From Arenicola marina (lineage: Eukaryota; Annelida; Polychaeta; Arenicolidae), in NCBI GenBank assembly GCA_964019135.1, contig OZ025260.1, positions 33,102,254 to 33,166,253 of the forward strand: 64,000 nucleotides of DNA. The letters run 5' to 3'. This document shows positions 27,301 to 60,600 of this stretch, piece by piece; the stretch's first letter is position 1; each line of letters starts with the position of its first letter. The position numbers were made by a program, and so were the translations under genes. The notes under the pieces are model-generated. The model had not been told where the DNA came from and did not search any database. It worked only from the letters and a program-made list of their open reading frames with translations.

Positions 27301-28764
27301 AAACTTTCGAGGCGAGATCACCCTAACGTTCGAGGCGAGATCGCGATATCCCGAGTCTCGCCGTCTCGCCGTCCGGTGATCTCGCGGTTTCGTCCATAAA
27401 TGAGAGGTGAGAATGTGAGATCGCGAGTGGCATGCACGTGCATGCCCCCTTACCTTTCACTGTGCATGCCCCCTTACCTTTCACTGTGCATGCCCCCTTA
27501 CCTTTCACTGTGCATGCCACCTTACCTTTCACTGTGCATGCCACCTTACCTTTCGCTGTGCATGCCCCCTTTCCTTTCACTGTGCATGCCACCTTACCTT
27601 TCACTCTGCATGCCACCTTACCATTCACTCTACATGCCACCTTACCTTTCACTGTTCATGCCACCTTACCTTTCACTGTGCATGCCCCCTTACCTTTCAC
27701 TGTGCATGCCCCCTTACCTTTCACTGCGCGTGTCACCTTACCTTTCACTCTGCATGTCACCTTACCATTCACTGTGCATGCCACCTTACCTTTCACTGTG
27801 CATGTCCCCTTATCTTTCACTGTGCATGCCACCTTACCTTTCACTGTGCATGCCAGCTTACCTTTCACTGTGCATGTCCCCTTATCTTTCACTCTGCATG
27901 CCACCTTACCTTTCACTGTGCATGCCACCTTACCTTTCACTCTGCATGCCACCTTACCTTTCACTGTGCATGCCACCTTACCTTTCACTCTGCATGCCAC
28001 CTTACCTTTCACTGTGCATGCCACCTTACCTTTCACTGCGCATGCCACCTTACCTTTCACTGTGCATGCCACCTTACCTTTCACGGTGCATGTCCCCTTA
28101 CCTTTCACTCTGCTTGCCACCTTATCTTTCACTGTGCATGCGACCTTACCTTTCACTGTGCATGCCACCTTACCTTTCACTGTGCATGCCACCTTACCTT
28201 TCACTGTTCATACCACCTTACCTTTCACTGTGCATGCCACCTTACCTTTTACTGTGCATGTCACCTTACCTTTCACTGTGCATGCCACCTTACCTTTCAC
28301 TGTGCATGCCACCTTACCTTTCACTGTGCATGCCACCTACCTTTCACTGTGCATGCCACGTTACCTTTCACTGTGCATGCCACCTTACATTTCACTGTGC
28401 ATGCCACCTTACCTTTCACTGTGCATGCCAGCTTACCTTTCACTGTGCATGCCACGTTACCTTTCACTCTGCATGCCACCTTACCTTTCACTGTGCATGC
28501 CACCTTACCTTTCACTATGCATGCCACCTTACCTTTCACTCTGCATGCCACCTTACCTTTCACTGTGCATGCCACCTTACCTTTCACTGTGCATGCCACC
28601 TTACCTTTCACTGTGCATGCCACCTTACCTTTCACTGTGCATGCCACCTTACCTTTCACTGTGCATGCCACCTTACCTTTCACTGTGCATGTCCCCTTAC
28701 CTTTCACTGTGCATGTCGTGGGCTCTGGGTGGTCGGTTGTGAAGTCTAGTAAGGCTCGGATCAT
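9304..28764 (-). CDS. Carotenoid cleavage oxygenase (BCO/RPE65 family), first 8 exons, 3' end outside window
   Basis: Eight exons with matching phases give 421 codons. Family members are about 530-560 aa, so roughly 110-140 residues, including the fourth His ligand, lie left of the window. Diagnostic motifs: SLIRNGPAKY, HLFDGLAVIHRF, ANRIVVSEFGT, ALTETPTMNRVDPETLE, ATAHP (His171), YFHSFGLTEHYIVF (His230), FHHINAYEEGD (His301/302), IELPRVN. These enzymes use a non-haem Fe(II) held by four His to cleave or isomerise carotenoids or retinoids in the cytosol or on membranes. The start at 28764 is in a GCACC-ATG context and gives a normal-length N-terminus. I cannot tell BCO1, BCO2 and RPE65-like apart from this part. 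Confidence 0.94.
9790..9892 (-). CDS. Carotenoid oxygenase exon 7
   Basis: Residues 356-389: DKGANLVDLPGSSASATW, then DDGTIFCEPEVHRDW, aligning to the BCO1 stretch with EDGQVYCQPEFLYE. Acceptor TCTTCAG; the donor G|GTATTA is weak, but phase 1 fits exon 8. Confidence 0.88.
10124..10366 (-). CDS. Carotenoid oxygenase exon 6: third iron ligand
   Basis: Residues 275-355: TRIHLVDKLTGE then FFTFHHINAYEEGDHVV; one of His301/302 is the third ligand. It ends TRFVLPLNPKE|GTGATT. Acceptor ATTGCAG, phase 0 on both sides. Confidence 0.94.
10782..23096. repeat. 12.3 kb satellite of about 470 26-bp units in oxygenase intron 5
   Basis: The unit reads CTTAGAGATAACGAGCCCAC followed by CCTTCA. It makes up about 92% of the 13.4 kb intron between exons 5 and 6. 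A rare variant (TTCGCTTGGAG) recurs near 17299, 19405 and 21589, offsets of 2106 and 2184 bp (81 and 84 units). A TTAGTGATA/CACTGAGAG pair recurs at 18261 and 20341 (80 units). This shows kilobase-scale duplication of blocks in the right half. Confidence 0.97.
23097..23810. other. Oxygenase intron 5, right flank: degenerate repeat family
   Basis: From about 23440 to 23715 the motif TTCATCGTGATCTGGGAAT recurs in degraded form, separated by AATTC-rich spacers. The same motif, inverted, occurs at 52380-52690 in the other gene, so this looks like a dispersed family. Confidence 0.5.
23811..24022 (-). CDS. Carotenoid oxygenase exon 5: second iron ligand
   Basis: Residues 204-274: SPNYFHSFGLTEHYIVFVEQ with His230 as the second ligand. 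It ends FQPELE|, aligned with the CLAFHREEK part of BCO1. Donor GAG|GTATTG opens the 13.4 kb intron 5. Confidence 0.94.
24309..24450 (-). CDS. Carotenoid oxygenase exon 4: first iron ligand
   Basis: Residues 157-203: SYVSVHIATAHP aligns to the AVNLATSHP stretch of BCO1, so His171 is the first Fe ligand; YNMGTSIG follows. It contains a 14-base stretch shared with the 18-bp array in intron 2. Confidence 0.92.
24876..25020 (-). CDS. Carotenoid oxygenase exon 3
   Basis: Residues 108-156: DNDCVSLMQLGDQVYAL then TETPTMNRVDPETLETL. Acceptor TTTTTAG. The donor CAG|GTGTGA is weak, but the phase (0) matches exon 4. Confidence 0.93.
25092..25413. repeat. 18-bp tandem repeat in oxygenase intron 2
   Basis: About 14 clear units of GGTCGCAATGTGAAAACAT type, then degenerate ones. 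The 14 bases GGTCGCAATGTGAA also occur inside exon 4 (24412-24425), about 700 bp away. Confidence 0.92.
25458..25716 (-). CDS. Carotenoid oxygenase exon 2
   Basis: Residues 22-107: GSIPSWVRGSLIRNGP, FGPDEAVHLFDGLAV, then NEAANRIVVSEFGT and PDPCRSIF. The first blade of the propeller, very strongly conserved. Acceptor CATCAG, donor AG|GTACGC. Confidence 0.95.
25717..27159. other. Intron 1 of oxygenase, right of exon 2: no gene seen
   Basis: Unique-looking intronic sequence. Near 26791 a lone CAGGGGCGGATCTAG matches one end of the hAT-like MITEs elsewhere in the window; no partner end was found. A minus-strand open frame at 26896-27264 has no recognisable domain. Confidence 0.6.
27160..27430. 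repeat. Degenerate GC-rich repeat around GCGAGATCGCGA
   Basis: Scattered, imperfect copies of GCGAGATCGCG and TCGAGGCGAGATC, rich in self-complementary TCGCGA. They abut the 24-bp array in intron 1 of the oxygenase. No coding signal. Confidence 0.7.
27430..28714. repeat. 24-bp minisatellite made of oxygenase exon 1's 3' edge and 5' splice site
   Basis: About 53 units. On the minus strand the unit is ATGCACAGTGAAAG|GTAAGG plus GGCA-like bases, that is the end of exon 1 followed by its donor. The period is a multiple of three, so frame is kept, and units read GKVACTVK. From the exon junction the frame stays open for about 15 units before a one-base loss near 28338. Confidence 0.95.
28701..28764 (-). 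CDS. Carotenoid oxygenase exon 1
   Basis: MIRALLDFTTDHPEP then TTCTVK, 21 codons plus one base, donor AAAG|GTAAGG. Joined to exon 2 it reads TVKGSIPSWVRGSL, matching the TGKIPAWLQGTL stretch of vertebrate BCO1. The exon's last 15 or so bases and its donor are the unit of the 24-bp array in intron 1. Confidence 0.85.
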
Positions 28765-29292
28765 GGTGCCGCCCGTGTGTCTGTTCCTGCCTCCAATCAA
28801 CAATCGGCCCCTTAACCACCAATGGCACGTATCCAGCTATTCTACTGTTTCGCGACCTATTCCAGATTCTGCAATATATAAACTATATGCTCATGCAATA
28901 CCGACCGAGCAAGCTCGGAAAATAATGCCTCGGTTTGACGCTCTGCCGGCCCCAGATAAAGAAGTCAAAATCGTTTGGCAGTCAACTGTTTTCGAGTTCA
29001 GAAACTAAGCGTCATACAGGGTCACCTAACTAGAACACTTGATATTGCCAGTTTTGTGATCTTGTAGAGCGCCCTAGATGTGGGCCGTGACATGGTGTTT
29101 ATGCTTGCGCTCAAAAAGGTCGAGGGTTTTTTGCACCACATTCACCGAATTATTTGCGCCGAGCAGTGGCGCAGCTACCTTTGACCCAACATACGCAGCG
29201 CCTCCCCGTTTTTTTCAGGGGCATTTTTCGACGTCATCCTTCCCCCTCCCCCCCCCCCCCCCCGCTATCGGCTGTTATAGTCTGCGTGTCAC
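28765..29292. other. Upstream region of the carotenoid oxygenase: no clear promoter element
   Basis: This is 5' of exon 1. The frame is open upstream of the ATG for a few codons, so this may include 5' UTR. I see no TATA box or other site I would defend. Poly-C and poly-G tracts lie near 29250 and 29380. Confidence 0.4.
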
Positions 29293-29577
29293 TATTAGGC
29301 GCAGACCCAGACCTTAGGCGGTGGGGGGAGGGGGGGGGGCTTGAATTTCGCGATCACAGTGCAAAAAGCGGTGGAAGCGGCTGGGGGGGGGGGGGGGGGT
29401 GGGGGGTTTGGGCCCTTCTTCTGCATCATGTTGCTGCTCCTAGACTTGGATAGGCTCCTTTATTTTCAGGAGCTAAACCTGTCAGTGGAGGGGCGGGGGG
29501 GGCTTCTGCGGCTTGACCAGTGGGGGGGAGAGGGGGGGAATTAAGCCGCAGTAGCTCCCCCTCTGGATCCGCCACTG
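29293..29577. mobile_element. hAT-like MITE, degraded copy
   Basis: Ends CTGGATCCGCCACTG and holds CTTCTGCGGCTTGACCAG and AGCCGCAGTAG, all shared with the copy at 61531-61730. The left part (CTTGAATTTCGCGAT) matches 61435-61450 instead. So it is a mosaic or nested copy; the left end is uncertain. Confidence 0.55.
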
Positions 29578-30117
29578 AACGTTATTGTGAGACTGGCTAC
29601 GCCATTGCCGAGGTAACCATGTAGTATGTTTGTTTTACCTAAAGCATCGACAGCTGAGATTTGGATCAACAGGTCGTCAGGTCGTGGGTTCGCGCCCCCA
29701 TGTTTTGGGCGCCAGCAGGTGGGGCAAGTATCAATCAATCCCATTTCATTCTCCCTGGTGCCCAATTAACTTTTCATGTTTCTTTGTCCCAATTAAAGGG
29801 AAATGCCGGGCCCATATCATTTACATTTTCAGTTAAGCTAAAGGGAATTAACTAAACATTACACACAATTTAATTGCTTTTAATCATATATACATTAGTA
29901 AAGTTGCAAGCGTTTTTTGCACGACCACCCAACTTGCCATGGGCACCCGCCTCAGTGCGCTGATGATGACGTCACCGGCGATGAAGCGACCAGTAGGTTT
30001 AGACGATTCTACCACCGGAAGCTATAATATCGAAACGATTCTATTACTTAATTACATCGCGTTAGAGTTTTTACACGGATGGTTACGGAAGACTTTAGCC
30101 TCAGCTTTATAGGTTCG
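29578..30117. other. Intergenic, no gene recognised
   Basis: AT-rich sequence. A GTGGGTTCGCGCCCC stretch near 29690 resembles a tRNA B box, but no cloverleaf or A box was found. Confidence 0.4.
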
Positions 30118-30357
30118 TTAATTTGGTCCTCTGCCTACGTACGTAGCATACAGATCGTCATCAAAGCAATTTTTCCTAAAGTGGTCGGAATATACTCTTG
30201 AATGGCTGGTGGGTTTAAAATTCACACGCGAAATCTTGTGTAGCCATCGCCGCAAAAGCAGCTGCTCGCCTATTGGATATCGGTAGAAAGATATCCTATG
30301 TTTGCTGTCCTGTTTTGCACTTGAATTGTTAGAGTCAACAGCTGAACAGTACACCAT
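30118..30357 (-). pseudogene. THAP-domain fragment with lost zinc ligands
   Basis: Seventy-nine codons from ATG at 30357. ISFYRYP, RRWLHKISRVNF, KPTSHSRVYSDHF and NCFDDDL follow the THAP zinc-finger pattern. Two Cys of the C2-CH signature look replaced: the second near the start (VDSNN) by Ser, and the one before SDHF by Tyr. THAP domains bind DNA in host regulators and in P-element-like transposases; no other exon is visible here. Likely a decayed relic. Confidence 0.65.
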
Positions 30358-30649
30358 TTTGTGCTACATGCATCGATGTTTCAAATGTTTAAGTAAAATT
30401 CGTTTGTCACTATTCATGAGAGGTGTTAAGGTGACAGCTTGTTCCAAAGACGCACCGCTTCTCGCAAGTAAACACATTTTTGGTTCAGCGGAGGGTCGTC
30501 GTCGGTGACGTAAACGCCTTGCGTGTGATTGGCTAATCCTGGTCACTTGTTCAGAACATGTCGACACCCGCCTGACGGGCGAAAATCAGTATTTTATACT
30601 GTAGATGTGCGATTAACGGCAATGATTAACGGTATAAATGTGACTACTG
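30358..30649. other. Intergenic, nothing recognised
   Basis: Between the THAP relic and the G-rich repeat; no open frame with a known domain and no RNA gene seen. Confidence 0.4.
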
Positions 30650-31335
30650 ACAGTAGTGGACCCAGCAATTTGCCATGAGGGCGGGGGGGGGGCGGTTATA
30701 AATGCGACTACTGACAGTATTAAACCCATCAATTTGCCATGGGTGGGGGGGGATATGCATGTGACTACTAACAGTAGTGGACCCAGCAATTTGCCATGAG
30801 GGCGGAGGGGGGGGGGTATAAATGCGACTACTGACAGTATTAGACCCATCAATTTGCCATGGGCGGGGAGGGGGGTATGCATGTGACTACTGACAGTAGT
30901 GGACCCAGCAATTTGCCATGAGCGTGAAAGGGGGGGGGGTAAATGGAACTTATTATTGACTGGTTTAACCCAGCAATTTGCCATGAGGGCACGGGGGGGG
31001 GGGGGTATAAATGAGACTACTAACAGTATTGGACCCATCAATTTGCCATGGGCGGGGAGGGGGGAGGTGGTTGGGTATGCATGTGACTACTGACAGTGGT
31101 GCATCCAGCAATTTGCCATCAAAGCGGAAGGGGGGGGGGTTATAAAAGTGACTAATGACAGTGATGGACCCATCAATTTGCCATGGGCAGGGGGTGGGGG
31201 GGGGGCGTATGCATGTGACTACTGACAGTGGTGGACCCATCAATTTGCCAGGAGGGCGAGAGGAGGGAGGGGGTCTAAATTGGACCAATGACAGTTACGG
31301 ATACAGCAATTCGCCACGAGCGGGGGCGGGGGGGT
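30650..31335. repeat. G-rich tandem repeat of about 60 bp, intergenic
   Basis: About eleven units, each with CAGCAATTTGCCATGAG or CATCAATTTGCCATGGG, a run of 7-13 G, then TATAAATG and GACTACTGACAGT. Two unit types alternate (GGACCCAGCAA and GACCCATCAA). Related units lie in the RTK gene at 33985-34145. Confidence 0.92.
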
Positions 31336-32586
31336 ATATATAAGTGTACACTCGGATCTTGCTCCCGACCCAGACTAGGATCACGCTAATTTGCAACATG
31401 AAGTCAAGCTTCAATAAATATGACACGTCGTCTATTTACCAGCTTTATTCACCTATATACATCATTTGCTGGAAGACTTTATTTGCAAATGAACTTGAGT
31501 ATTCCATTAAATCAATAGCAGGAGCAATGCGACATGAGTCGAGCGCGATGTTTGAATGTCTCTATCGGATAAACCCACCGAGGTGGCGCGGCTCGGGAAA
31601 AACTAATGGACCGCCTTGAGCTTGTGGTGACTGATCAAGTTATCCATCACGTTGCAGTCCGGTGATTTCAGATAACAATATTCAAACAGTTAGATAGGTA
31701 AATATAACCAATCACTCACAATTACTTCCATATTCGCCCTTTAGTAGGATTTGGTCGCCTTTGCAATAGGAAAAACGGAGATGAACACGCATTCCTTGGC
31801 TATTGTTATTGGTATTCACACACAGGATATTTCCGTGGTTATCTTAACCAAGTTAATTTCTATTATGTCTACTATGGCAAAGAATATTAATCGTTTAAAT
31901 ATATCGATCCGCATTGATTTGGGTTATACTTCAGCATAGTGTTTGAGTAACGTAAGGGATAAAATATATAAGGATTGATTTCCAGTTACTTCATAGATAA
32001 ATCAACATGTCCTATAGCATAGGGAACACATATTAATATTAAAACGCCACAAGCTACATACTGTCATTGACACACATTAACCATCACTACCCCTATATAC
32101 AACACGCGTTACTGATCAAAGTTACTGACTTTAATCCCATAGCAACATCAGCTAATTGTGACCCTAAACATGCTTTGCACAACTCACCGGGAACGATATA
32201 CAGTATATAAACATCATGGTAAGTTTACTTCAAGTAAGATGAAATGTACGAAGAGTGTAATTGTACAGAAGTGCCACATTCATATTAGGAGTGGTAAGCT
32301 TACCAATGTCTTCTGGAATACCGAGAAATAGTTACTCGACATTTTACAGATATTAGTATTACATATTTTTCTGGTCCATGACCATCGACCCAATATTACA
32401 CACACTACTGTACATTACTCTCAGTGCATCCGTCTTCGGTGCTGAATGACAATCACAAACAGCTTCTTTCCACCCCTTGAACTATACAATTTCGATGGAA
32501 ATCGCAAATGGTCACCGATAAAAGTCCTCACAACAGGAAAATTAGCACGTATACACAGTCTGAGGCAGCAAACGTACCTGCCTATT
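31336..32586. other. Intergenic or 3' UTR region of the pseudokinase gene
   Basis: AT-rich with no coding signal. Minus-strand AATAAA hexamers at 31444-31449 and 31478-31483 are possible polyadenylation signals, but they lie 2 kb past the stop codon. Nothing else recognised. Confidence 0.4.
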
Positions 32587-33611
32587 GGGTTTTAATTGGT
32601 GGAAGCGTGGATAAACAGGTAACTAGTCATTGGATCCTAGCTGGTAGATAAACTTGGTCTCCACTCTAGGGGGGTTCCGCAAGACGCAAACCGCAAAACT
32701 GCCCATTTGGTTCTAGTTGGTTGATGCGTAGATAAACTGGCTCTCCGTTCCGGGGCGGTTCGGTATCATGTGACCAAGGTAACTGCCCATTTGGTTCTAA
32801 TTGGTTGATGCGTAGATAAAGTGGCTCCCCGCTCCGGGGCGGTTCGGTATCATGTGACCAAGGTAACTGTCCATTTGGTTCTAGTTGGTTGGTGCGTAGA
32901 TAAAGTGGCTCTCCGCTCCGGGGCGGTTCGGTATCATGTGACCAAGGTAACTGCCCATTTGGTTCTAGTTGGTTGGTGCGTAGATAAACTGGCTCTCCGC
33001 TCCGGGGCGGTTCGGTATCATGTGACCAAGGTAACTGCCCATTTGGTTCTAGTTGGCTGATGCATAGATAAACTGGCTCTCCGCTCCGGGGCGGTTCGGT
33101 ATCATGTGACCAAGGTAACTGCCCATTTGGTTCTAGTTGGTTGGTGCATAGAAGTGGCTCTCCGCTCCTGGGTGCTTCGGTATCATGTGACCAAGGTAAC
33201 TGCCCATTTGGTTCTAGTTGGTTGGTGCATAGATAAACTGGCTCTCCGTTCCGGGGTGGTTCGGTATCATGTGACCAAGGTAACTGCCCATTTGGTTCTA
33301 GTTGGTTGGTACATAGATAAACTGGCTCTCCGCTCCGGGGCGGTTCGGTATCATGTGACCAAGGTAACTGCCCATTTGGTTCTAGTTGGTTGGTGCATAG
33401 ATAAACTGGCTCTCCGCTCCGGGGCGGTTCGGTATCATGTGACCAAGGTAACTGCCCATTTGGTTCTAGTTGGTTGGTGCATAGATAAACTGGCTCTCCG
33501 CTCCGGGGCGGTTCGGTATCATGTGACCAAGGTAACTGCCCATTTGGTTCTAGTTGGTTGATGCGTAGATAAACTGGCTCTCGGCTCCTGGGCGGTTCCT
33601 GATGACGTAGC
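32587..33611. repeat. 84-bp minisatellite made of the receptor's last codons, stop and 3' UTR
   Basis: About eleven units plus one or two degraded ones on the left. On the minus strand each reads NRPGAESQFIYA-x-TN-stop, then a spacer of 12 codons. The first unit is the true end of exon 23. The 84-bp period is 28 codons, so each copy keeps the gene's frame and its own TAG. Confidence 0.95.
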
Positions 33612-33757: not shown

Positions 33758-36700
33758 CTGGGGTAGTGACATTAATTAATATTATTAAGATTATTATTAT
33801 AGTTCCTTTTCTTCTTATTATTATTAACATTATTATTATTACAATTAGCATTATTATTATTGTGGAAATTAGTATTACTACAATTAGAATTAAAACTATT
33901 AGTAGGAATACAATTATGATCATTATTACTAATCTATTACTAGTCTAGTGGCCATATTTGGGGTACACAAAACACATCCGAGCATATGGTTTGGTCAGAC
34001 AGGTGGTGGACCTAACAATTTGCCATGAGCGGGGGGAGGGGGGGGGGTATAAATAGACCTACTGATCTACTGATAGTGGTAGCAATTTGCCAGGGGTGCG
34101 AGGGGAGGGCGGGGGGTATAAATTGGACCACTGACAGTTACAGTTACAGCAATATGAAGTGTTCATATTTGGCGCACACAAAACACGTCCGAGTATATGG
34201 TTTGGTCAGACTTGGGCACACTAAGCCGAGTGACGGCAGAATTGGAGTGACTTGTGAATATATAGAGTTAGATCGGATGTGGTGACCGCGAGACGTGGAG
34301 CAGTGTAGCTGGCTTACATAGTGTCCGGGCAGCCAGCCGGGCGAGAGAGGCGATATCCAGAGTCCAGAGCCGCCTTCATCTCGCTACTCTTCCGGTCGCT
34401 GTAGGGGTTTGCTCCTGTATCGGGGATATGGATATTATGGTCATATGGTCATATGAGAGCAGTAACTTAATTTATCTAAGTGATGTGGTAAAAGGGTTAC
34501 ACTAATCTCATGCGACGGTGACACCAATCTCATACGCTCAAGCGGTGACACCAATCTCACACGATCAAGCGGTGACACCAATCTCACACGATCAAACGGT
34601 GACACCAATCGCACACGATCAAAGGGTGACACCAATCTCACACGATCAAACGGTGACACCAATCTCACACGCTCCAGCGGTGACACCAATCTCACACGAT
34701 CAAACGGTGACACCAATCTAACACGATCAAACGGTGACACCAATCGCACACGATCAAAGGGTGACACCAATCTCACACGATCAAACGGTGGCACCAATCT
34801 CACACGATCAAACGGTGACACCAATCTCATACTTTCAAGCGGTGACACCAATCTAACACGATCAAACGGTGACACCAATCGCACACGATCAAAGGGTGAC
34901 ACCAATCTCACACGATCAAACGGTGACACCAATCTCACACAATCAAACGGTGACACCAATCTCAACAGGATCAAACGGTGACACCAATCTCACACGATCA
35001 AACGGTGGCACCAATCTCACACGATCAAACGGTGACACCAATCTCACACGATCAAATGGTGACACCAATCTCACGATCACCATAAGTAGATAATATAGTG
35101 GGGGCATAACATAGTAGCATATTCAGTAAACGGCCATATATAACGCGTGGCGGCTCTCTAAGACGTCCGCATTTGCTAATTCCATTGCCACGTACTTCTA
35201 AGCTCTCCTGAGTCAGCAAGATCCCATGTTAAAGATGAGCATGGGGGTGTGACGTCATACATGTAGCGAGTGGCTTTAGCAGAGGATATATTTGGCTCTA
35301 TGCGACGTGTCTGTATCGCGATACATAACAAACCCGGATGTGCCATCCATGAGAAAAGATTAACAGGACAACGTCAAAACATCAACGGAAACTTAAAGTC
35401 ACAGGAGAGAGAGGGCGTGAACTGCAAAAGCTCAACCCGCACATCCGCATTCGCGCTGACGTAGTCACGAACGCTGCCCATGTCATATATAGACATGTGG
35501 TAAATATTGACATTACTTTTTATATTCCTCTTTATGTATTTGCTTTACAGCGCTATTTGCAACAGAGTGCTTTCCCGGAGTGGAGTGGACGCCATGGCGG
35601 GCATATGGAGAGCGACAGGGAAGTGCGAGATATTAATTGTGGCCACGAGGGAAACATTGTTGGTTAAAACAGGCATCAAAAATAGATACCGACAGTCATG
35701 GTAATGTATATAGAGATTAATGAATTGAACACTTTCGATATCAACTAGAATTTTTAGTCAATAGCTGAAATTTTATTTGAACACTTTTGATATCAACCTT
35801 AACATATAGCCAAGAGCTGCAATTTTGATAACACTTTTCTTAGACGGGCACATCGAGAGAAATCGTAGATTTCTGCTCCGAGGATTGAGAGAAAAAAAGT
35901 CATTTGGGCGGCACATATGTATATACGTAACTATATGTAGTGCCCCCCAGCCACCCCAACCCGGGGATTGCATTATATATATGTGTTTATTCAATCAAGA
36001 CGGTTAATATATGTTTCGTCATCCAAAGATATAACATAAATATTTCTCCCATGATTCCTGCTATTGCTGTTCCTGCACTTCTACACACTTTTCACATATT
36101 CTCTGGATTTACATCAAACACGAGCAACATTTCACTCGTCATAACTGAAGATCTCCCACATTGTGACGTCATCAATCAGAGCGTTACTCACCATGACTGA
36201 ACATCACACAGATTGTGACGTCATCAGTCAGAGCTTTACTCGCCATGACTGAAGATCTCCCCATTGTGACGTCATAGGTCAGTGCTATACTCACCATGAC
36301 TGAACATCTCACAGATTGTGACGTCATAAGTCAGCGCTTGACTCACCATGACTGAAGATCTCCCAGACTGTGACACCATAGGACCACACATCTGTTGCCT
36401 TGTTGTATGCCCTCGTCTCGCCCTTAGGCAGCCCCAGCTGCTCGGGGGCCATCCACTTGATGGGGACGCGTTCCTGGTCGGATCAAGATATGAACTTGTA
36501 TGAAACACGTGATTTCAATGCTTTCAGGCTCAGTGGAAGCGCCGGACGATCATGTGGTGGCCCGTGAACACATATTGGATGGAGATTCGAGTTTCAGCCT
36601 CTCCAGTTGCCAAACGTTACTGATAGTGTTTATTTAATCAATTTTATTTAATCTATTTTAGCAATCTATTTCAGAGTTCCATGGCCCAGATTAGCCATTA

Positions 36701-39613
36701 CGTGCGTGCATAAAAGCGGTCTAAACTCCAATTCATTTTATATTCAAGACGTGATCCGGGTCTGTGTCTGACCTTCGCGCTGCTCATGGCCTCCGAGCCT
36801 TCCAGCTCCCCCTTCATGGGGCCGAAGCCGAACAGTTTGGCAAGTCTGCGTCCGTTGACAGTTCTCAGCAGCACATTACGCGCTCCAAGTCGCCTGTGAA
36901 TTATCTGAAATATAAAATTATGAACAAATTTACTATTTAGCGGCATTCTTGAACTTGCCGATAGGCCACACCAAGATTTGATGGACGAGACAGGTGACGC
37001 CATTATAGATATCAGGCGGCCCCTCGCCTTGCACTGCTTAAATACGTGTAGAGAGGGAGGGAGGGAGAAAGTGTGAGCGTCATACACTCACACAGATATG
37101 ACCTGAGGACGGCCCATCTTCAATTCACGAATGATCCGAATGTCAATCAAACACTGCTGGGTATAATGTACACTGATATAACAGATCATTTCCCAACATT
37201 TCTAATTTCGAAATACTGCCGAGAAGTGGTGAACAAACAGGTTTTAGCGAGAAGAAACTTTAGTAGAAAAAATATATCTGAGTTTGTAAACATTATTTCG
37301 ACGCAAAATTGGGAGGACACATTAGAAGAGACTGATACTCAAGATGCATTTACGAAAGTCCATGGCACTTTATGTCGACACTATGAGTCATGCTTTCCAT
37401 TAGTATCCCCGTCTTCCAAATATAAAAGTAGAAAACCCTGGCTGACTAATGGGTTAAAGAACCCTATTAAAATGAAAAATAAACTTTATCTTCGAAGTCG
37501 CTCACTTAAAAACGAATTATATGCAAAGGAATATAAAACGTATAAAAATAAACTATTACATACACTTAGGGAAGCAGAGAAACTTCACTACCAGAATCAA
37601 ATTAAAACCAATCAGGGAAATCTATTTAAAACCTGGAAAACGATTAAGGAAGTAATTAATCGTAATAAGTGCATTAAAAAACAAACTACTTTTATAAAAA
37701 ATGACTGCCTTATCTCGGATCGAAGAGACGTTACCAATGGGTTTAACCAATTCTTTGTAAATATTGGAAGCACCCTAAGTAAAACCATTCCTAACACGAA
37801 TGATACACCATTGGGCTCTCTCGATAAGGTAAATTCCCACACACTTTTTCTTGATCCAGTTACCGATGATAAAATTTATAGCATTATGGGATCACTAAAG
37901 AACGGTTCGTCTGGCTGGGATTCCATTGGTCCGAAAATTATCAAAAATATCATTCCTCATCTAACGAAACCGTTGCATCATGTTATCAATCTATCATTCT
38001 CCCAAGGCTACTTCCCCAACGAATTAAAAATTGCAAAAGTAATTCCAATATTCAAGGCAGGGGATACGAAGATGTTTACCAATTATAGACCCGTATCAGT
38101 TCTACCTACTATTTCAAAGATATTTGAAAAGGTAATGTATAATAGACTACTGAATTATATAAATAAACACCATTTGTTACATGACCACCAGTTCGGCTTC
38201 AGACCCAAACATTCAACGACTTTGGCTTTGATACTACTAGTTGATAAAATATCATCTGCCTTAGATAGGGGGGAATCGGCAATCGGGATTTTCTTAGATT
38301 TTTCTAAAGCATTTGATACTGTTAATCACAATATATTACTTTTAAAATTAGAAAGATATGGAGTCAGAGGCATTGCATTAGACTGGTTTAAAAGTTACCT
38401 TTTTGACAGGGAACAGTATGTTGAATACGACGGGGCTAACTCCGAGAAATTAAACATAAACTGCGGAATTCCGCGAGGGTCTGTTCTTGGACCACTTTTA
38501 TTCCTCGTTTACATAAATGACTTAGCATCTCTGAGTAGCAAACTGTTTAGCATACTATTTGCAGACGATTCAAATTTTTTTATTACGGGGAATGATATTG
38601 AAAAAATGATCCAAACGGTAAACTTAGAGTTGGACAAAATTAAGCATTGGCTCCAGGTTAATAAATTAACGCTTAACCTTAGCAAAAGCAAATTTATGAT
38701 CTTTAAATCCCCACGTAAAAAAATATCCATTTTATCCAAAGTACAAATTTCGGGTCATGCTATTGAGCAGGTCTCATGCATAAAATTTTTAGGGGTTCAA
38801 CTCGATAGTAGCCTGCTCTGGAAAGAACACCTACAATACATTAAAGGCAAGATTTCAAGGGGTTTAGGGGTAATTACACGGGCTAGGAAGGTGCTTACCA
38901 AAGATATATTGCGTAGCCTTTATTTTTCATTTGTGTATCCATATCTTTCGTACGCTCAAGAAGTTTGGGGGGCGGCCTACCGGTCCTATTTACATCCATT
39001 GTTTATTTTGCAGAAAAGGGCTGTTCGTATAATTACAGGTGTAAACAAGTATTCTGACATGGAAAATCTGTTTAAAGAAATTAATATTTTACCTTTGACG
39101 AAATTGTATGAATATAGTGTTGTTTTATTAATGTTTAAGCAATACCAGGGCATATTACCTGAACCTATCCAATCTTTATTTGTTACGAGGTCTAGCATCC
39201 ACAGTCATAATACTAGAGGAGCCAAGCTACTACATATTCCAAAGGCTAGAACTGATCATTTTCGCAAATCTATAAGATATTCGGATATTACTTTATTTAA
39301 TAAATGGTATAGTAAAATAGAATTTAACTCCTCCCTTCACTCATTCAAGAGAATAATTATGTCGTCCTTAGTACTAAACTAGTCGAAACTTTATATTTAT
39401 ATCCAATATGCGATACCTGTTTTCACACTAATTCCTTGAGGTAAACAGCCTACTACTGTGGCCCTTTCACGTTATTTTTTTATTATTTTTTTTTTCTATC
39501 TGTATAGATCTAGTTGTACTTTATGTTAGCATATAAGCTTCGGCTTCTGCTATTGTCAATGTACTATATGTTTGTTTACCTGCGATGTATACCCTTGATC
39601 TTCGGACAATAAA

Positions 39614-39645
<32 letters not shown>

Positions 39646-42600
39646 GACCCCACGAAAAGGGTTATTGCAGTAAATGGTCGGCGTGAGTAACACTATGCTT
39701 CGGCGAGAGCTATGCTGAAACAATGGCAGAACGACCCGATGTTTGACCGTTGGACACGTGGTACATGACAAGATGATTGCTCCACATGGTCTGTCAGTAA
39801 ATTACGCGTGACGTACCATTGACGTGCGCGTGACGTACGCGTGACATAGGCGTGACGTACGTGTGACGTACGTGCAAAAACCTACCTCTTGCTGGTGGAG
39901 ATGCTCGAGGCCACGAGACACATCGGTGCAGAAGTTGATCATCTCATCCTCGTCGTCGGCAGTCGGGTTGCTGTGCTTCTTCAACCAGTCCTTTAGGCTT
40001 TCATCGCAGTACTCCAGCAGCAAGGTCTTACCTGCCAGTGACAACATAGACGTGCAGACAGCGCCCAGAGCATCAATTCATTAATCGCTCGTTAGGTAAG
40101 GCCAAGAAAACACATTTTTACTTCAAAGTGGAAACCATTTTCATCTTTTCCAGCAAAGTTGAGTCAAAGTCCTTCAATGAATGGCAAGAACGACCGACCG
40201 ATAGATCAGATTATATAATATTTTAATTACAGTTTCCGGTAAGGAAGCACGACCTGACGAGGTAAGGTATGCCCTGCACAACATGACCAAAAGACCCGAG
40301 CGAGCATGCCGCACTCACGTGCCATGACCGCCCCCATGAAGTTGACGAGGTTGGGGTGTGGTTCGATTCCGTGAGCCATGAAGTTCATCTTGGCCACCAT
40401 CAATAGTGCGTCGTCCGCAGTGTGGCGCTCTGTAAAAATACCACAAATTAATACGGTGCACAAATAACTAATGAATATATATGTATATATTTAAAGAATA
40501 AAACATGTTTTCACTAAATGCAATATGTATCTTTAAAATTTTGACATATTGTTTATATAATTATATATTATATTTATTATACATAATTACATTTATTATA
40601 CAAATTTATATTTAAATAAAAAATTCTTTCGTTTTTATTACCATATATTTGTGTTAAACCTGCACACTATTGCTTGTTACCATATTACACATTGCAATAA
40701 TACATATTACAATATTACATATTGTATATAACATATTACATGATACAGAATTCTATAAACCGATCCCCAAGGTCCGTACGTTTCAGGGTCTTGGCTGCCA
40801 CCGTCGTACGCTCCCCTTTCTCCTCCAGGATTCCGATGTGGACGTCGGCGAACTTGCCGTGTACCAGGACTTTTCCCAGCGTGAAGCGATCGCTGGAGTG
40901 CTTCCAGCTGGCCCCGGGATCCGTCTCCATGGCGCTGTAGAAGTAGATGTCATCCTCATCGCCGGTCAGGGCCGGGCGGGAGACGAAGTTCACCGAGGGG
41001 TGCTGAGGGAACACAGAACAAAACTCTTCAGCTATGGAAAGCCTAAGCGGTAGTTGGTTACGGGACTATTTAATTTACCGTGGACAATTAATGAAGTAGT
41101 TGATATGTCAATGAGTCTATCGTCAATTAAAGTGCCAACGAATTAATGGTCAATTAAACTGTCGAAGAATTACTAGTCAATTAAATTGTTCATGAACTAC
41201 TAGTCAATTAAAATGTCAATGAATTACTAGTCAGTTACATTGCCAATGAATTAGTAGTCAATTATTTTTTGAATTGATTAATAGCCAATTAAAATGTCCG
41301 TTAAATTAAAACTAATTAATGTGTCTATTAACAGATATTTAATTATTGCCTTAATTGAGTACTTAATTTTTAGCCAGCTAGAAATGAGTAATTAAACATG
41401 TTGCGGCATTATGAGAGGTTGTTTTACACGACCATCATAAGTTAGGTAACGCGGTTACTAATTTCGCCTCGCTCATTCATCGACCAACTATCATTGGGAA
41501 ATTCCAGGCATTTACGTTAAACAAATTTAACATAAGAACAAGACATTGACATCTTTGTTTTCTCTGATAATAAATGCATCATGCTTGTGACCACATTACA
41601 ATTCATGCAACGGGCGAAGCACGTGGAACGCATTGTTCATATACCACCGACGCGCGAACGAAAGTTGCGCCACCTAGCGAGTGCCAGCGCCACCTAGCGA
41701 GTGTGATTGCTGACCATGGTGTATCTGTTTGTCGCCTCCAGCTTGGCGCCTCTCTCCCAATCCAGATCGTCCGAGGCGGTCGGGTGGTGGGTGAAGCGAT
41801 TCACGATGTCGCTCCGGATGGTCCGGGCTCTCGTTCGGATGTTCTCCGGGATCGGATCCTTGTGGGCTCGAATCCGGAGCAGGATGAACACCACCACCAG
41901 GATAATCAGGATCAGCAGCAACAAACCTGCGTGGCGGCAGATCGGGATCTCATTAACACCCCATTAACATCTCATTAACATCTCATTATCGCTTTGGTTC
42001 GTAATATGTAATACTCGTTCTGCATTGCACGACGAAGTACAAAACAAATATTATCAACACTATATTCCAAGCATCCTTAAATGTATTATTGATAGGAATG
42101 CAGAACGGATGATACTTTGAGATGGTATAGTCTACACGCTTAGAGTTAATATAGCATCAACTTGTGAATCATGATATCAGATGGTTTTTGTTTTGAGAAG
42201 GTTGGTTTAACCAAGGTGGGAGGTTCAATCACTTCGCGAAGTGATCCGGCCTGTACATGTAGTTCGGTGGAAGGTTAGAGAAGAAATGAATTGAATTGGT
42301 GTTTTAGGGCTAAACTGGGCCAAGGAACCTCCCGAGACAATGAATGATGAATGGATGAAACCTGCCCCAGATTAGGTGTCCGGGTCTAGATGTTAACCCA
42401 GGACCTATTGATGTGTCGTCTTTTGCGTTAACAACTACTCCAAGGAAGCTCCCCCCGGAAGGTTAGATTACTTACCGATGACTATGCCAACAATGCTTCC
42501 CGTTGGCAAATCAGGGCCAACCTCTGGAAACGCCAAATACAATACAAAAATCAGACATAATAAAGAAATTAGATTGTCACATGTGAGGGCGGGGTGTTAT

Positions 42601-45600: not shown

Positions 45601-48600
45601 CCGAGAGATACACACCGAGAGATACACACCAAGAGATACACACCGAGAGATACACACCGAGAGATACACACCGAGAGATACACACCGAGAGATATACACC
45701 GAGAGATATACACCGAGATACACACCGAGAGATACACACCGAGAGATACACACCGAGAGATACCCACCGAGAGATATACACCGAGATACACACCGAGAGA
45801 TACACACCGAAAGATACACACCGAGAGATAGAGACCAAGAGATACACACCGAGGGATACACACCGAGAGATACACACCGAGAGATATACACCGAGATACA
45901 CACCGAGAGATACACACCGAGAGATAAACACCGAGAGATACACACCGAGAGATATACACCGAGAGATACAGACCAAGAGATACAGACCAAGAGATACACA
46001 TCGCGGGATACACACCGCGAGATACACACCGAGAAATACACACCGAGAGATACACACCGAGAGATACACACCGAGAGATATACACCGAGATACACACCGA
46101 GAGATACACACCGAGAGATACACACCGAGAGATACACACCGAGAGATACACACCGAGAGATACACACCAAGAGATACACACCAAGAGATACACACCGAGA
46201 GATACACACCGAGAGATACACACCGAGAGATACACACCGAGAGATATACACCGAGAGATATACACCGAGATACACACCGAGAGATACACACCGAGAGATA
46301 CACACCGAGAGATACCCACCGAGAGATATACACCGAGAGATACAGACCAAGAGATACAGACCAAGAGATACACATCGCGGGATACACACCGCGAGATACA
46401 CACCGAGAAATACACACCGAGAGATACACACCGAGAGATACACACCGAGAGATATACACCGAGATACACACCGAGAGAGACACACCGAGAGATACACACC
46501 GAGAGATACACACCGAGAGATACAGACCAAGAGATACAGACCAAGAGATACACACCGAGAGATACACACCGAGAGATACACACCGAGAGATATACACCGA
46601 GAGATACAGACCAAGAGATACAGACCAAGAGATACACACCGCGGGATACACACCGCGAGATACACACCGAGAAATACACACCGAGAGATACACACCGAGA
46701 GATACACACCGATAGATACACATCAAAAGATACAAACGAGTTACAAGTATTTTATAACATAGAAAATGGGGCTGACTATTGTCGTATAATATGTTATATG
46801 ATGCGCTCTTCCAAGCAACTAATCATTATGAAAAAATCCGACTTGACAATGAAGCATTGCAGTTTGAACATGTGTTATACTTACATTCATTCATTCCGCG
46901 CAGATCCGTCAGAACCCCAAGCTGAAACACATTGAGGGGTCTGACTTCAGCAGCAATATTAGGTGCTTTAGTCATAACATGACAAAGCGTTGGTATACAT
47001 GCAGCATCATCAATACCATATGCAACAATATCAAACTGGGCCGAGCGTGAAATATATAGATTTATCACTAAAGCCGATAATGTATTAATAATTCCAGAAA
47101 ATATCAACAATGCCAATCGCTATATGCATGTCTGCATAGAAACCTGCTATTTACAGCTGATTTCGCAATTTGCACACGTATTGGATTGATGCAGGATGGG
47201 TATCTGAATCAGTTTCGCGTCAGTTTATTTTTGATAGCCTCATTGACATGGAGATCAAACAAAACGGGACCCAACCCGGAATAGAACGGATAGAGCGACC
47301 TGGCATTAATATTTACCTCTGTCTGTTAATAAAAAATCTCATTCCAGGTGATTAACGCAGTCATTTTGTGTGCCGTCCACGTCAGTGCGAACTATTGTTT
47401 CATCATTAAACTCATCACTACGATAGTCTAACCGTGAACCATAACATGCAGCAGGGTCAACTCCACCACAGATTGAACGGAGATATCAATCATACGGATT
47501 TGCTTCTGGCCGTGGATGGAGATTTTTGTCACGTTGTTCTATGGAAGGTTTCTATTTACCGGGTACTCGAATCCTGTCTGAAGTCGGGCCCGGTTGAAAA
47601 CTTGACCTTCAATCTTAAGCTTCCTCCCTATGTGAAACCGAAGCCAACAGTTGTTGACGAACACCTCTTGTGGACTCTCGTAACACTCATCAAAACTTGT
47701 GCAGAAACAGTCAGGCGACGTTAAGCACTCGGCGGGTGTCTGAAACAGTAACAGAGTAACGGTTTCCATAACGATAGACTTAGTAACTATGGCGACACTA
47801 TCGTTGACCATAATGCATTGATAAGCAGCTACAACAGCCGTTGTGACGGACGAAGCGGCTCTACCAAACGGTACTCTGACTCACAGTTTGTACCAAACGG
47901 CCCTGTGACTCACCTTCTGTACCAGGCGGCCCTGTAACTTACCTTCTGTACTAAACGGCCCTGTGACTCACCTTCTGTACCAGACGGCCCTGTAACTCAC
48001 CTTCGGTACCAGGCAGCCCTCTGACTCACCTTCTGTACCAGACGGCCCTCTGACTCACCTTCTGTACCAGACGGCCCTCTGACTCACCTTCTGTACCAGA
48101 CAGCCCTAGGACTCACCTTCTGTACCAGGCGGCCCTGTGACTCACCTTCTGTACCAGGCGGCCCTGTGACTCACCTTCTGTACCAGGCGGCCCTCTGACT
48201 CACCTTCTGTACAAGACGACCCTGTAACTCACCTTCGGTACCAAACGGCTCTCTGACTCACCCTCTGTACCAGGCGGCCCTGTGACTCACCTTCTGTACC
48301 AGGTGTCCCTGTGACTCACCTTCTGTACCAGACGGCCCTGTAACTCACCTTCGGTACCAGGCAGCCCTCTGACTCACCTTCTGTACCAGGCAGCCCTCTG
48401 ACTCACCTTCTGTACCAGACGGCCCTAGGACTCACCTTCTGTACCAGACGGCCCTCTGACTCACCTTCTGTACCAGACGGCCCTCTGACTCACCTTCTGT
48501 ACCAGACGGCCCTGTAACTCACCTTCTGTACCAGGCGGCCCTGTGACTCACCTTCTGTACAAGACGGCCCTCTGACTCACCTTCTGTACCAGACGGCCCT

Positions 48601-51600
48601 CTGACTCACCTTCTGTACCAGACAGCCCTAGGACTCACCTTCTGTACCAGGCGGCCCTCTGACTCACCTTCTGTACCAGGCGGCCCTGTGACTCACCTTC
48701 TGTACCAGGCGGCCCTCTGACTCACCTTCTGTACAAGACGACCCTGTAACTCACCTTCGGTACCAAACGGCTCTCTGACTCACCCTCTGTACCAGGCGGC
48801 CCTGTGACTCACCTTCTGTACCAGGTGTCCCTGTGACTCACCTTCTGTACCAGACGGCCCTGTAACTCACCTTCGGTACCAGGCAGCCCTCTGACTCACC
48901 TTCTGTACCAGGCAGCCCTCTGACTCACCTTCTGTACCAGACGGCCCTAGGACTCACCTTCTGTACCAGACGGCCCTCTGACTCACCTTCTGTACCAGAC
49001 GGCCCTCTGACTCACCTTCTGTACCAGACGGCCCTGTAACTCACCTTCTGTACCAGGCGGCCCTGTGACTCACCTTCTGTACAAGACGGCCCTCTGACTC
49101 ACCTTCTGTACCAGACGGCCCTAGGACTCACCTTCTGTACCAGACGGCCCTGTAACTCACCTTCTGTACCAGACGGCCCTCTGACTCACCTTCTGTACCA
49201 GACGGCCCTAGGACTCACCTTCTGTACCGGACGGCCCTGTAACTCACCTTCTGTACCAGGCGGCCCTGTGACTCACCTTCTGTACAAGACGACCCTGTAA
49301 CTCACCTTCGGTACCAAACGGCTCTCTGACTCACCCTCTGTACCAGGCGGCCCTGTGACTCACCTTCTGTACGAGGCGGCACTTTGACTCACCCTCAGTA
49401 CCAGGCGGCACTCTGACTCACCCTCTGTACCAGGCGGCCCTGTGACTCACCTTCTGTACAAGACGACCCTGTAACTCACCTTCGGTACCAAACGGCTCTC
49501 TGACTCACCCTCTGTACCAGGCGGCCCTGTGACTCACCTTCTGTACCAGGCGGCACTTTGACTCACCCTTTGTACCAGGCGGCACTCTGACTCACCCTCT
49601 GTACCAGGCGGCCCTCTGACTCACCTTCTGGGCCAGACGGCCCTGTGACTCACCTTCTGTACCAAACGGCCCTGTGACTCACTTTCTGTACCAAACTGCA
49701 CTCTGACTCACATTCTGTACCAGACAGCAATCTGACCCAACTTCTGTGCCAGACGGCCCTATGATTTACCTTCTGTACCAGGCGGCCCTGTGACTCACCT
49801 TCTGCACCAGGCAGCCCTCTGACTCACCTTCTGTACTAGGCGGCCCTGTGACTCACCTTCTGTACCAGGCGGCCCTGTGACTCACCTGCTGCACCAGGCG
49901 TCCCTGTGACTCACCTTCTGTACCAGGCGGTCCAGTGACTCACCTTCTGTACCAGGCGGTCCAGTGACTCACCTTCTGTACCAGACGGCCATCTGACTCA
50001 CCTTCTGTACCAGGCGGCCCTGTGACTCACCTTCTGCACCAGGCGTCCCTGTGACTCACCTTCTGTACCAGGCGGCCCTCTGACTCACCTTCTGTACCAG
50101 ACGGCCCTGTGACTCACCTTCTGTACCAGGCGGCCCTGTGACTCACCTTCTGCACCAGGCGTCCCTGTGACTCACCTTTTGTACCAGGCGGCCCTGTGAC
50201 TCACCTTCTGTACCAGTCGGCCCTGTGACTCACCTTCTGTACCAGGCGGCCTTGTGACTCACCTTCTGTACCAGGCGGCCCTGTGACTCACCTTCTGTAC
50301 CAAACGGCCCTGTGACTCACCTTCTGTACCAAACTGCACTCTGACTCACATTCTGTACCAGACAGCAATCTGACCCAACTTCTGTGCCAGACGGCCCTGT
50401 GATTTACCTTCTGTACCAGGCGGCCCTGTGACTCACCTTCTGCACCAGGCAGCCCTCTGACTCACCTTCTGTACTAGGCGGCCCTGTGACTCACCTTCTG
50501 TACCAGGCGGTCCAGTGACTCACCTTCTGTACCAGGCGGTCCAGTGACTCACCTTCTGTACCAGACGGCCCTGTGACTCACCTTCTGTGCCAGGCGGCCC
50601 TCTGACTCACCTTCTGCACCAGGCGTCCCTGTGACTCACCTTCTGTACCAGGCGGTCCAGTGAGTCACCTTCTGTACCAGGCGGTCCAGTGACTCACCTT
50701 CTGTACCAGGCGGCCCTGTGACTCACCTTCTGTACCAGGCGGCCCTGTGACTCACCTTTTGTACCAGGCGTCCCTGTGACTCACCTTCTGTACCAGGCGG
50801 CCCTCTGACTCACCTTCTGTACCAGACGGCCCTGTGACTCACCTTCTGTACCAGGCGGCCCTCTGACTCACCTTCTGCACCAGGCGTCCCTGTGACTCAC
50901 CTTTTGTACCAGGCGGCCCTGTGACTCACCTTCTGTGCCAGGCGGCCCTCTGACTCACCTTCTGTACCAGGCGGCCCTGTGACTCACCTTCTGTACCAGG
51001 CGGCCCTGTGACTCGCCTTTTGTACCAGATGGCCCTGTGACTCACCTTCTGTACCAGGCGGCCCTGTGACTCACCTTCTGTACCAGGCGGCCCTCTGACT
51101 CACATTTTGTACCAGGCGGCCCTGTGACTCACCTTTTGTACCAGGCGGCCCTGTGACTCAACTTCTGTACCAGACGGCCCTCTGACTCACCTTCTGTACC
51201 AGGCGGCCCTGTGACTCACCTTCTGTACCAGGCGGCCCTGTGACTCACCTTCTGTACCAGACGCTCCTCTGACTCACCTTCTGTACCAGGCGGCCCTGTG
51301 ACTCACCTTCTGTACCAGGCGGCCCTCTGACTCACCTTTTGTACCAGGCGGCCCTGTGACTCACCTTTTGCACCAGGCGGCCCTGTGACTCACCTTCTGT
51401 ACCAGACGGCCCTGGTGGACGCTGGAGATGACTGTTTCCGGGTTCTGGTCGCTGGTGACGTCCACTATGTTGTATTCTATGGTGTGAATGCCGCCCACAT
51501 TGTCAGCCGTGTAGACATTCAGCCTGAAAGTGTGGTATATAGTAAACGGCTGGGTAAGCGAATGTATAATAAAATCTTTAAAATAAATGAAATATAATTT

Positions 51601-57600: not shown

Positions 57601-60600
57601 GCTATCACTCTCAATTGATATCACTCTCAATTGCTATCACTCTCAAATGCTATCACTCTCAATTGATATCACTCTCAATTGCTATCACTCTCAATTGATA
57701 TCACTCTCAATTGCTATCACTCTCAATTGATATCACTCTCAATTGCTATCACCGGGCGCTGTGCGGCCCAATCCACGTAGTAAGACGGTACCTCTTGACC
57801 AGTTGTCGACGGTACTTACCTTACGCAGTAAGACGGTACTAACCTTACGCATTAAGATGGTACCTGCTCTTGACCAGTGGTCACTCTACGTAGTAAGACG
57901 GTACTTACTCTTGACCATTTGTCACTCCGCGTAGTAAGACGGTACTTACTCTTGACCAGTTGTCACTCCGGCCGGAAATGGGAAGTTGACGTTGCAATCT
58001 TTGCTTTCACTGGGGTCCCCCGTGGGTGTTTTCTTGTAGCATGATATCGTCGACGTGGTTAATGTAGAGTTATCTGATTGAAAAGGAACAAACACTGCTT
58101 GCTATCTGGTAGTAAAAAAATCTAAGTACCACATGATAGATCAATGTAAACAATGTAAACATGAACTGACCCAATACTTGTTTTTGCGTCGTTATGCCAC
58201 TCAGACATTCATGGCCACTTTCGCTTTATGACATGCATCAGCACTTTTTAATGCATATCAACTATTTTTATATATCATTACTGTTTCATTATAAATATAT
58301 ATATATATATATCACTAACTTTCTTACATGCATGAACACGTTGATTTATGTATCATTACTGTAGTGTTATATCACTACTTTTATAAATATATCGTTCATT
58401 GCCTATTTAGTTGCACTACTTTCGTGTGTCAATCCCTATTTTAGTATATGGGTTCGGCGGTATGGTTGTCTCACTCCGCCTCCCCAACGGGTCTCCCACC
58501 TGTTCCCCGCAGCGTCATGGTCGCGAAGGTCTCAGTCATGCCATGCAGGAAGTTGCTCAGGTAGGCGGGTCGTTCCGGGAGGTCCGTCACACGGTCGTAG
58601 CTCGCCAGCCACCGGAAGTTGACCATGTCGAAGTCTCGTTTCCCGGCCCACGTGGTATGGTTCTTTCTCTCCTCGATCCCGCAGAGGCCGGTGTGGAGCG
58701 GGTTCCCGCTCGCCAGCAGAGTGCCCTGACATGTCGGCGCGTTCACACCGGCCCTCACTGCAAGCACAAGTACCGTGTGAGCAGGGATCGTATTCATAAT
58801 CCCCTCGTAAGTTACGCACGAAAAGTGCATTTTCGTCTTAGCCTCACCAGGTGGTTGTGGTGGCGTTCATTATCAGGAAATCATATTCAATATAATTTTA
58901 GCACTTTGATCATTCAAAAAATACACTTCTTGGGTGAATACTTATGTATCTTACAACCCGATAATCGATCGACAAATCTTCCACTTAGCGCTAAGTCTAG
59001 TGGCGTAGCCTAAGTGGGGATTAGTTGGCCCTAGAATAGGACATTAGCATGGAGCGGGGCGAAATATTTGGCCCCCGCCGTTCGAACTTACGGACCCAGA
59101 AGACGTGACAGCATCCATCAATCAATTAATTCAGTACTTGTAAAAAAAACTAAGATCATAATTTGAGTACTTTACGCCTGAAGGCAAATTTAGCACAAGA
59201 AACATGGCCATATTCGGAACATGCCCCAGATGAGGGCGCAAAGGTTCGAACCCATGACCTATTGGTCCTATTACTGGCCTGCTCGTCAACTGAACGAGTG
59301 ATGCTTCCATTTCAAAATAGAAGGATTATACAATTTATGACAAACGGGTTATTTGTATCCCGAAGACCTATTTTTCATAGATATTGCTTTATCGGTCGAT
59401 ATTTCTAAAAACATCCACATGATGAAGAATGTAAAGTCATTTATCGCAAAAACAAATATTCGAGGAAGTGTTCACTGAGAGAAAATGGTGGTCTACGAAT
59501 AAGTGTTAAAGTGGCCTTTAGCCTGGTGTTTCACTTACACAGTTGGCAGTTGTTTCCGTGGAAGAGTCCGGGACACGTACACACCGGACGTCCGGTCCGT
59601 CTCGAACATGTGCCTGGGTAGCAATCCGTTTCGAACGAACAAGTCTCTGTAATAACCATAAACAGTCGCAATATATAGGCTACACCAGAAGAGTGAGAGG
59701 TGTGGTTGGGGGTGGGTGGGGGGGGGAGTAAAGAGAAAGGGAGAGAGAGAAAAGACACTACGGTGGATAATTGGGATGGGATGTAAACAAACACGCACAC
59801 AACATTAAAATTAAAATACGCCATGACTCCGATGACCTTGGAAGCAGAGATCTATATGACTACAATAAGGCATGGAGAAAACGCTGGCGTTCGGGTTGGG
59901 AACACAGCTACGAGGCAAGGGTTTCGATCTCGTCGATCACATAACGACCCACTGAATGCCGAAACACATTTTACTATGATCTCATCATCTACCTCTAAAC
60001 CAATTACCACTACTTTTTCCACTTTGATTTCTAGCTGAAAGATTCAATATATTTCTCATGGGAAAACATTGTCGTATAAACAGCTTTAACGTATCTGCGC
60101 CATGGTCCAGTATCAAACGCAACAAGAAACACTCACCTAGCTGACATATGCGGCCGGCGGCGGTTACTGGGCAGTCACAATTGTTGGGGCCAATGCACAC
60201 TCCCTCGTTAAGACATGCTGGGTTGCATATCGCTAATGGTAAGGAACGGCAAATGAAGCCTTCAAATACGCTCTTAATTACGGGTAATCTGTGGACATGC
60301 ATCATATATAGAGACTTCTGCAGAGGTTTCTTGACAACCTTGGTGCATGTTAACCAGTGCAAGACGCTTGTTGGCAAATAATTAAAAATGTATCATGTCA
60401 GCAGCTACAAAGGAGACTCTTATAGGAAGGGGTATGGAAGAGGTACATGGCGACACGTGACACAGCCATATTCGAAAAAGCGACATTCGACATTGATAGT
60501 GGCATTTTAGAAGAAAAACGACACTGAACTTAACCAAAAAGTGACAAAGAACGTCGTGAAAAATCGACACTGGACACTGGACCCCACCCTTCCAAACCCT

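Follow-up and report, generated by a model that had tools for sequence, protein, structure and literature searches.

We analyzed a 64,000-nucleotide stretch of the genome of the polychaete Arenicola marina (GenBank assembly GCA_964019135.1, contig OZ025260.1, positions 33,102,254 to 33,166,253; hereafter the window, in whose coordinates all positions are given), in which five minisatellite arrays have the 3' end of an exon as their first repeat unit. They belong to two animal genes, both on the minus strand, one coding for a receptor that looks like a pseudokinase and the other for a carotenoid oxygenase similar to RPE65. The label “mirage” for such arrays reportedly goes back to the minisatellites of amphioxus Adh3 studied by Canestro et al. 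in 2002. Since mirages have already been described in amphioxus (parts of PMC3087553 and PMC3902484), the phenomenon has a name, whereas the sequence-only reading of this DNA that preceded our analysis knew of no named system. The observation itself is true and of a known kind, and the window is unusually rich in examples, since two adjacent genes contain five arrays founded on exon edges, among them one with 122 copies of a donor and another at a stop codon. They are likely the product of ordinary tandem duplication at exon 3' edges, filtered by selection.

The five arrays and the exon ends from which they start

The arrays are designated here by their location, R7, R12 and R22 in introns 7, 12 and 22 of the receptor gene, R24 in its last exon, and O1 in intron 1 of the oxygenase gene; all were delimited on the minus strand with Tandem Repeats Finder (TRF) and by a unit walk anchored at the junction. 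In each of them, unit 1 is the modelled 3' end of the exon. R7 (57808-57970) has a 41-bp unit made of the last 22 nt of exon 7 and the first 19 nt of the intron (GTAAGT..), with the donor after 57950. TRF gives it as two rows, 57853-57970 with the 41-bp period and 57808-57863 with a period of 24 bp, the latter being a nested minus-strand repeat of 2.3 copies with AGGTTAGT/AGGTAAGT. R12 (47877-51414, donor after 51394) consists of 122 copies by TRF of a 29-bp unit, in which the last 21 nt of exon 12 are followed by the first 8 nt of the intron (GTGAGTCA). The 52-bp unit of R22 (36140-36374, 4.5 copies by TRF, donor after 36347) combines the last 30 nt of exon 22, the end of a kinase motif, with 22 nt of intron (GTGAGT..). 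O1 (27438-28715, donor after 28701) has 53.3 copies by TRF of a 24-bp unit, eight codons in frame, formed by the last 16 nt of exon 1 and the first 8 nt of the intron (GTAAGGGG). Thus, in these four arrays the unit spans an exon/intron boundary. The 84-bp unit of R24 (32697-33598, stop codon at 33552-33550, also delimited by the end of the gene model) spans coding sequence and 3' untranslated region (UTR) instead. Its unit 1 comprises the final codons with the stop codon and 3' UTR sequence; the walk was anchored here on the 48 nt that end with the stop and on 36 nt of the 3' UTR. No donor-like sites were detected on the gene strand of R24 at the threshold used.

The array boundaries called by TRF cross the exon edge in all five cases. 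The stretch of one unit length on the 5' side of unit 1 has an identity of only 0.21-0.37 to the unit in every array, indicating that the arrays start inside the exon end. When the rest of the window was searched without gaps for each unit, the best match exceeded the mean for shuffled units by no more than rounding, and we therefore consider the five units unrelated to each other. None of the listed TRF arrays is wholly internal to an exon. The exon sequence inside listed arrays (119 of 3,852 bp in the receptor, 15 of 1,262 bp in the oxygenase) is found in all instances at the five 3' edges. Inspection of the flanks by eye revealed no consistent pattern of microhomology at the founder edges, although TATG is common to both edges of R22.

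Much of what the sequence-only reading had described was confirmed by TRF, the exon models and the unit walk. The range that it gave, 27430-57973, takes in all five arrays; unit 1 is an exon end in two genes, with a GT donor in four cases and a stop codon in the fifth, and the units are mutually unrelated. The unit sizes of 24, 29, 52 and 84 bp were also correct, while the 43 bp given for the remaining array has to be replaced by 41 bp, the main unit of R7. The receptor introns, numbered 6, 11 and 21, were each one too low, being introns 7, 12 and 22 in a model that includes the signal-peptide exon.

The exon ends of R22 and O1 can be followed in the protein. Across the R22 junction, “sygvtvweifshganpys” aligns without gaps to EGFR (one match listed of 1872). 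At the O1 junction, with exon 2 starting at 25716, “PEPTTCTVKGSIPSW” runs gap-free in the five alignments listed (19 matches), two of which are near-identical RPE65 rows. An acceptor before 25779 had been considered for oxygenase exon 2 and was dropped for 25716, where the homology runs gap-free through exon 1; the change raised the best oxygenase score from 218.8 to 224.4 bits. For R7 and R12, the exon ends are supported by frame, phase and consensus. As the exonic parts of R22 and O1 are conserved protein, the exon would have come first and the array second, a polarity that the alignments support at these two junctions. The reverse order, with an array that existed first and an exon end recruited from the repeat, is very improbable in our view. 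It has a precedent in an intron-gain model put forward for amphioxus globin mirages (in the part of PMC3087553 available), and the exon ends of R7, R12 and R24 fall outside matched Pfam domains, as it would allow, but it does not fit the conserved protein at the ends of the R22 and O1 exons.

Downstream copies and the bias towards donors

According to the explanation that we favour, a short segment straddling the 3' edge of an exon would be tandemly duplicated by ordinary slippage or break-repair, and slippage or unequal exchange would then enlarge the array and make its units uniform. The extra copies would survive because they are placed downstream of a complete exon, in an intron or 3' UTR, where the protein would remain unchanged as long as splicing takes place at the first donor, and the same would apply to copies of a stop codon. 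Duplications inside exons would be removed by selection. Short duplications of acceptors would probably also be eliminated, since they would place extra AGs and pieces of exon upstream. Selection would be the chief cause of the positional bias. The rule that copies lie downstream of a complete exon covers all five arrays, including the one at the stop codon.

Many of the copies keep the donor, with GT intact in 118 of 122 R12 units and in 47 of the 51 O1 units examined; it has been lost in some units of R7 and R22. When donors were taken at fixed unit steps, the downstream copies of R7, R12 and R22 either shifted the reading frame or brought in a premature stop. In R12, donor 2 shifts the frame but meets no stop codon within the translated stretch, and from donor 3 onward a stop appears. 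Only the first donor leaves the frame of the receptor undisturbed. O1 is different in that all 12 donors tested remain in frame and open; its 24-bp unit is in frame, and donor leakage would therefore add only eight residues per copy. In the same region, the reading frame of oxygenase exon 1 continues along the 24-bp array (27438-28764, minus strand), leaving 147 amino acids open from the ATG at 28764.

That the copies are kept by selection as spare donors, one of the possibilities raised by the sequence-only reading, is barely plausible. The frameshifts and stops make the copies of R7, R12 and R22 poor spare donors, which contradicts the idea in three of the four donor arrays, and some R7 and R22 units have even lost the GT. 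In its favour, the 29-bp unit of R12 varies least at the donor core (mean diversity at positions -3 to +6 of 0.047, compared with 0.150 elsewhere, the lowest of 29 circular 9-nt windows). The core also ranks first of 29 by unit types with a minor allele and by runs, and tenth by distinct minor alleles. This pattern is absent from O1, where the core takes rank 6 and the GT rank 15 of 24 and the donor columns show no special conservation. The low diversity of the R12 core may be due to chance or to a weak constraint on extra donors.

The position of the arrays was compared with a null in which each array is founded by a single unit, with a uniform position across the gene and exon interiors excluded. 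The 52 rows given by TRF were reduced to 31 by removing overlaps and periods below 10 (e.g., 39615-39645); for some of the 31, the coordinates of rows that overlapped had been combined manually. The rows were then merged into 27 arrays, of which one, intergenic (30631-31338), was left out. An earlier tally of the merged arrays against exons covered the receptor gene. Among the 26 arrays retained, four are founded on a donor, where 0.29 are expected under a strict overlap (P = 1.3e-4) and 0.52 under a looser one (P = 1.4e-3). The excess is also found in subsets (18 arrays with at least about four copies, 17 with a period of at least 20), with P values from 1.5e-5 to 7.9e-4. It should be noted that these values are post hoc and inflated, since the pattern was the reason for choosing the window, and that the null is crude. 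No array is founded on an acceptor, for which the 0.29-0.52 expected are too few to be informative. Exon 3' edges outnumber 5' edges by 5 to 0 (one-sided P = 0.031, two-sided P = 0.0625).

A different picture was obtained from repeat coverage, assessed in the receptor gene by windows matching nearby DNA. Such matches were found at 3 of 23 donors, none of 23 acceptors, 1-2 of 347 exon interiors and 1,223-1,330 of 3,096 intron interiors, the counts for exon and intron interiors varying with the threshold. Repeat coverage of donors is therefore lower than that of intron bases (Fisher P = 0.005-0.009) and higher than that of exon interiors (P = 0.0008-0.002), with no significant difference from acceptors (P = 0.23). 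In the oxygenase, under a first exon model that has since been superseded, a match above 0.6 was found at one of five donors (O1) and at no exon start. The excess at donors anticipated in the sequence-only reading thus holds, within the window, for the founders and does not hold for repeat coverage. The sole unusual feature of the five arrays is that the founder reaches into the exon.

According to the merged array list, 56.7% of the window consists of tandem arrays, so that tandem duplication appears to be rampant here, and some arrays could straddle junctions by chance. The high number of self-similar intron windows in the receptor (up to 1,330 of 3,096) is in line with such a coincidence. 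Nevertheless, uniformly placed founders would seldom include exon bases together with a donor (the 0.29-0.52 expected versus four, with a P value inflated by the choice of window), and we regard it as quite improbable.

It could also be that transcription, R-loops, or pausing of U1 or the spliceosome make 5' splice sites more prone to breaks or slippage, seeding arrays at the junction. The donor-founded arrays, together with the absence of acceptor-founded ones, would agree with this, and the first repeats of lancelet PGBD5 are reported to abut 5' splice sites (in the part of PMC3902484 considered). On the other hand, the enrichment is post hoc, and repeats cover donors less than intron bases. 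GC content, GC skew and AT skew showed no clear difference between the four mirage donors and 27 others (Mann-Whitney U test, P = 0.74, 0.33 and 0.13, with low power), and the three mirage donors of the receptor rank 1, 9 and 24 of 27 in strength. R24, lacking any donor-like site, speaks against mechanisms that need U1 or a 5' splice site. In amphioxus, as far as the sections used here describe, the globin gene BflGb6 has a mirage at an acceptor (PMC3087553), and the repeats of PGBD5 touch 3' splice sites too (PMC3902484). Seeding linked to the junction, which had been proposed in the form of R-loop or U1-related pausing and finds no support in these properties, is one possibility, rather doubtful and not the best supported. 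Seeding at exon 3' edges by some process coupled to transcription or splicing, over and above what selection lets pass, is unlikely; if true, exon ends would be mutational hotspots steadily feeding splice-site arrays into introns.

Several points weigh against ordinary duplication filtered by selection. The null already excludes exon interiors and still expects only 0.29-0.52 donor-founded arrays where there are four, so that selection alone may not suffice. The low diversity of the R12 donor core is a second point, and the choice of the first among about 120 near-identical R12 donors is unexplained. Lastly, the exon-to-array polarity is putative at R7, R12 and R24, whose exon ends are outside matched domains. 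Even so, the window shows a way to separate mutational bias from selective survival. Moreover, R12 represents a demanding natural test of 5' splice-site choice, in which the first donor would have to be selected by the spliceosome among more than 100 that are nearly identical.

Gene models and other features of the window

The receptor gene (63989-33550, minus strand) has 24 exons and codes for 1,283 amino acids, with matching phases and zero internal stops. Exon edges were picked by hand on the AG/GT consensus and frame, so this open frame is partly by construction. Exon 1 (63989-63919) is the signal-peptide exon, and the protein continues with cysteine-rich/EGF-like, FN3, transmembrane (identified by eye) and kinase-like regions. 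In Pfam, PK_Tyr_Ser-Thr was matched at 3.7e-57, and fn3 and EGF_TEN scored under their curated cut-offs. The kinase-like domain in exon 21 (36904-36773, minus strand) contains HRR and GFG, which we take to replace HRD and DFG, respectively, and these motifs make the receptor look like a pseudokinase. The carotenoid oxygenase/RPE65-like gene (9304-28764, minus strand) is incomplete in our model, which comprises exons 1 to 8 with an ambiguous choice of donor for exon 7. It matches RPE65 at 2.6e-84 over residues 10-416, and RPE65 is also its best match in the PDB, a biased set.

Other arrays of the two genes were also considered. Two very large ones in the oxygenase do not start at an exon end and are not mirages. 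A 26-bp array (10781-23095) fills most of oxygenase intron 5 and starts ca. 715 bp past the exon end at 23811, and a 24-bp array (1-9220), which takes most of intron 8 within the window, starts ca. 80 bp past the exon end at 9304. An acceptor-side mirage was suspected at 25095-25413, where an array reaches “ttgcag” at 25093, and was rejected because homology favours an acceptor ca. 72 bp further, before 25020. In receptor intron 14, the gene strand of a 14-bp array (43461-46734, minus strand) has 128 donor-like sites and the other strand 2; this array does not start from an exon end. An 11-bp array (39803-39872, minus strand) begins 13 bp past the exon 20 donor; four of its six units contain GTACGT, and it is possibly an intron-only relative of the mirages. 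Receptor intron 20 also contains an antisense element resembling a long interspersed nuclear element, with an open reverse-transcriptase frame (37052-39382, plus strand; RVT_1, 2.6e-35). A small open frame with a THAP domain (30121-30357, minus strand; 4.8e-09) is located between both genes.

Comparison with amphioxus mirages and intron gain

Neither a genome-wide count of mirages by edge type nor a stop-codon mirage turned up in an open-licence subset of PMC, in which no search was aimed at stop-codon cases. The comparisons that follow refer to parts of the papers cited. Junction-spanning tandem arrays have been named mirages in amphioxus Adh3, globins, TnC and PGBD5 (PMC3087553, PMC3902484), and splicing was reported to be undisturbed by those of Adh3, TnC and globins (PMC3087553, PMC3902484). 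Their origin was called unclear in the globin paper (PMC3087553). Both in the amphioxus globins (BflGb6/BflGb9, PMC3087553) and in the arrays described here, many units retain AG/GT and the unit length varies by gene. Retention of the splice signals in many copies, a trait of mirages, is found in R12 and O1, and not in R24. Amphioxus mirages are further characterised by somatic instability and polymorphism in length. The arrays of Arenicola marina reach 122 copies and 3.5 kb, compared with 3 and 6 units in BflGb6 (PMC3087553). Unlike amphioxus mirages as described, there are four in one gene, and one of these is at a stop codon instead of a donor. The 60-bp and 108-bp repeats of lancelet PGBD5 resemble ours in the contact of the first repeats with 5' splice sites, but differ in having two to seven imperfect copies, depending on the assembly (PMC3902484). 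The introns of amphioxus VCBP3 likewise contain copies of exons, whole or in part, that lie next to the coding exons and have canonical splice sites, although the copies are not presented as tandem minisatellites (PMC2632668). Finally, splice signals are also copied in intron gain by tandem duplication of AGGT (PMC3443670; potato RdRp, PMC4974935). There, the duplication makes a new intron from exon sequence (PMC3443670), whereas R22 and O1 represent existing introns that carry copies, without a new intron between duplicated splice signals; the junction is in conserved protein, and the repeats are located on the intron side only.
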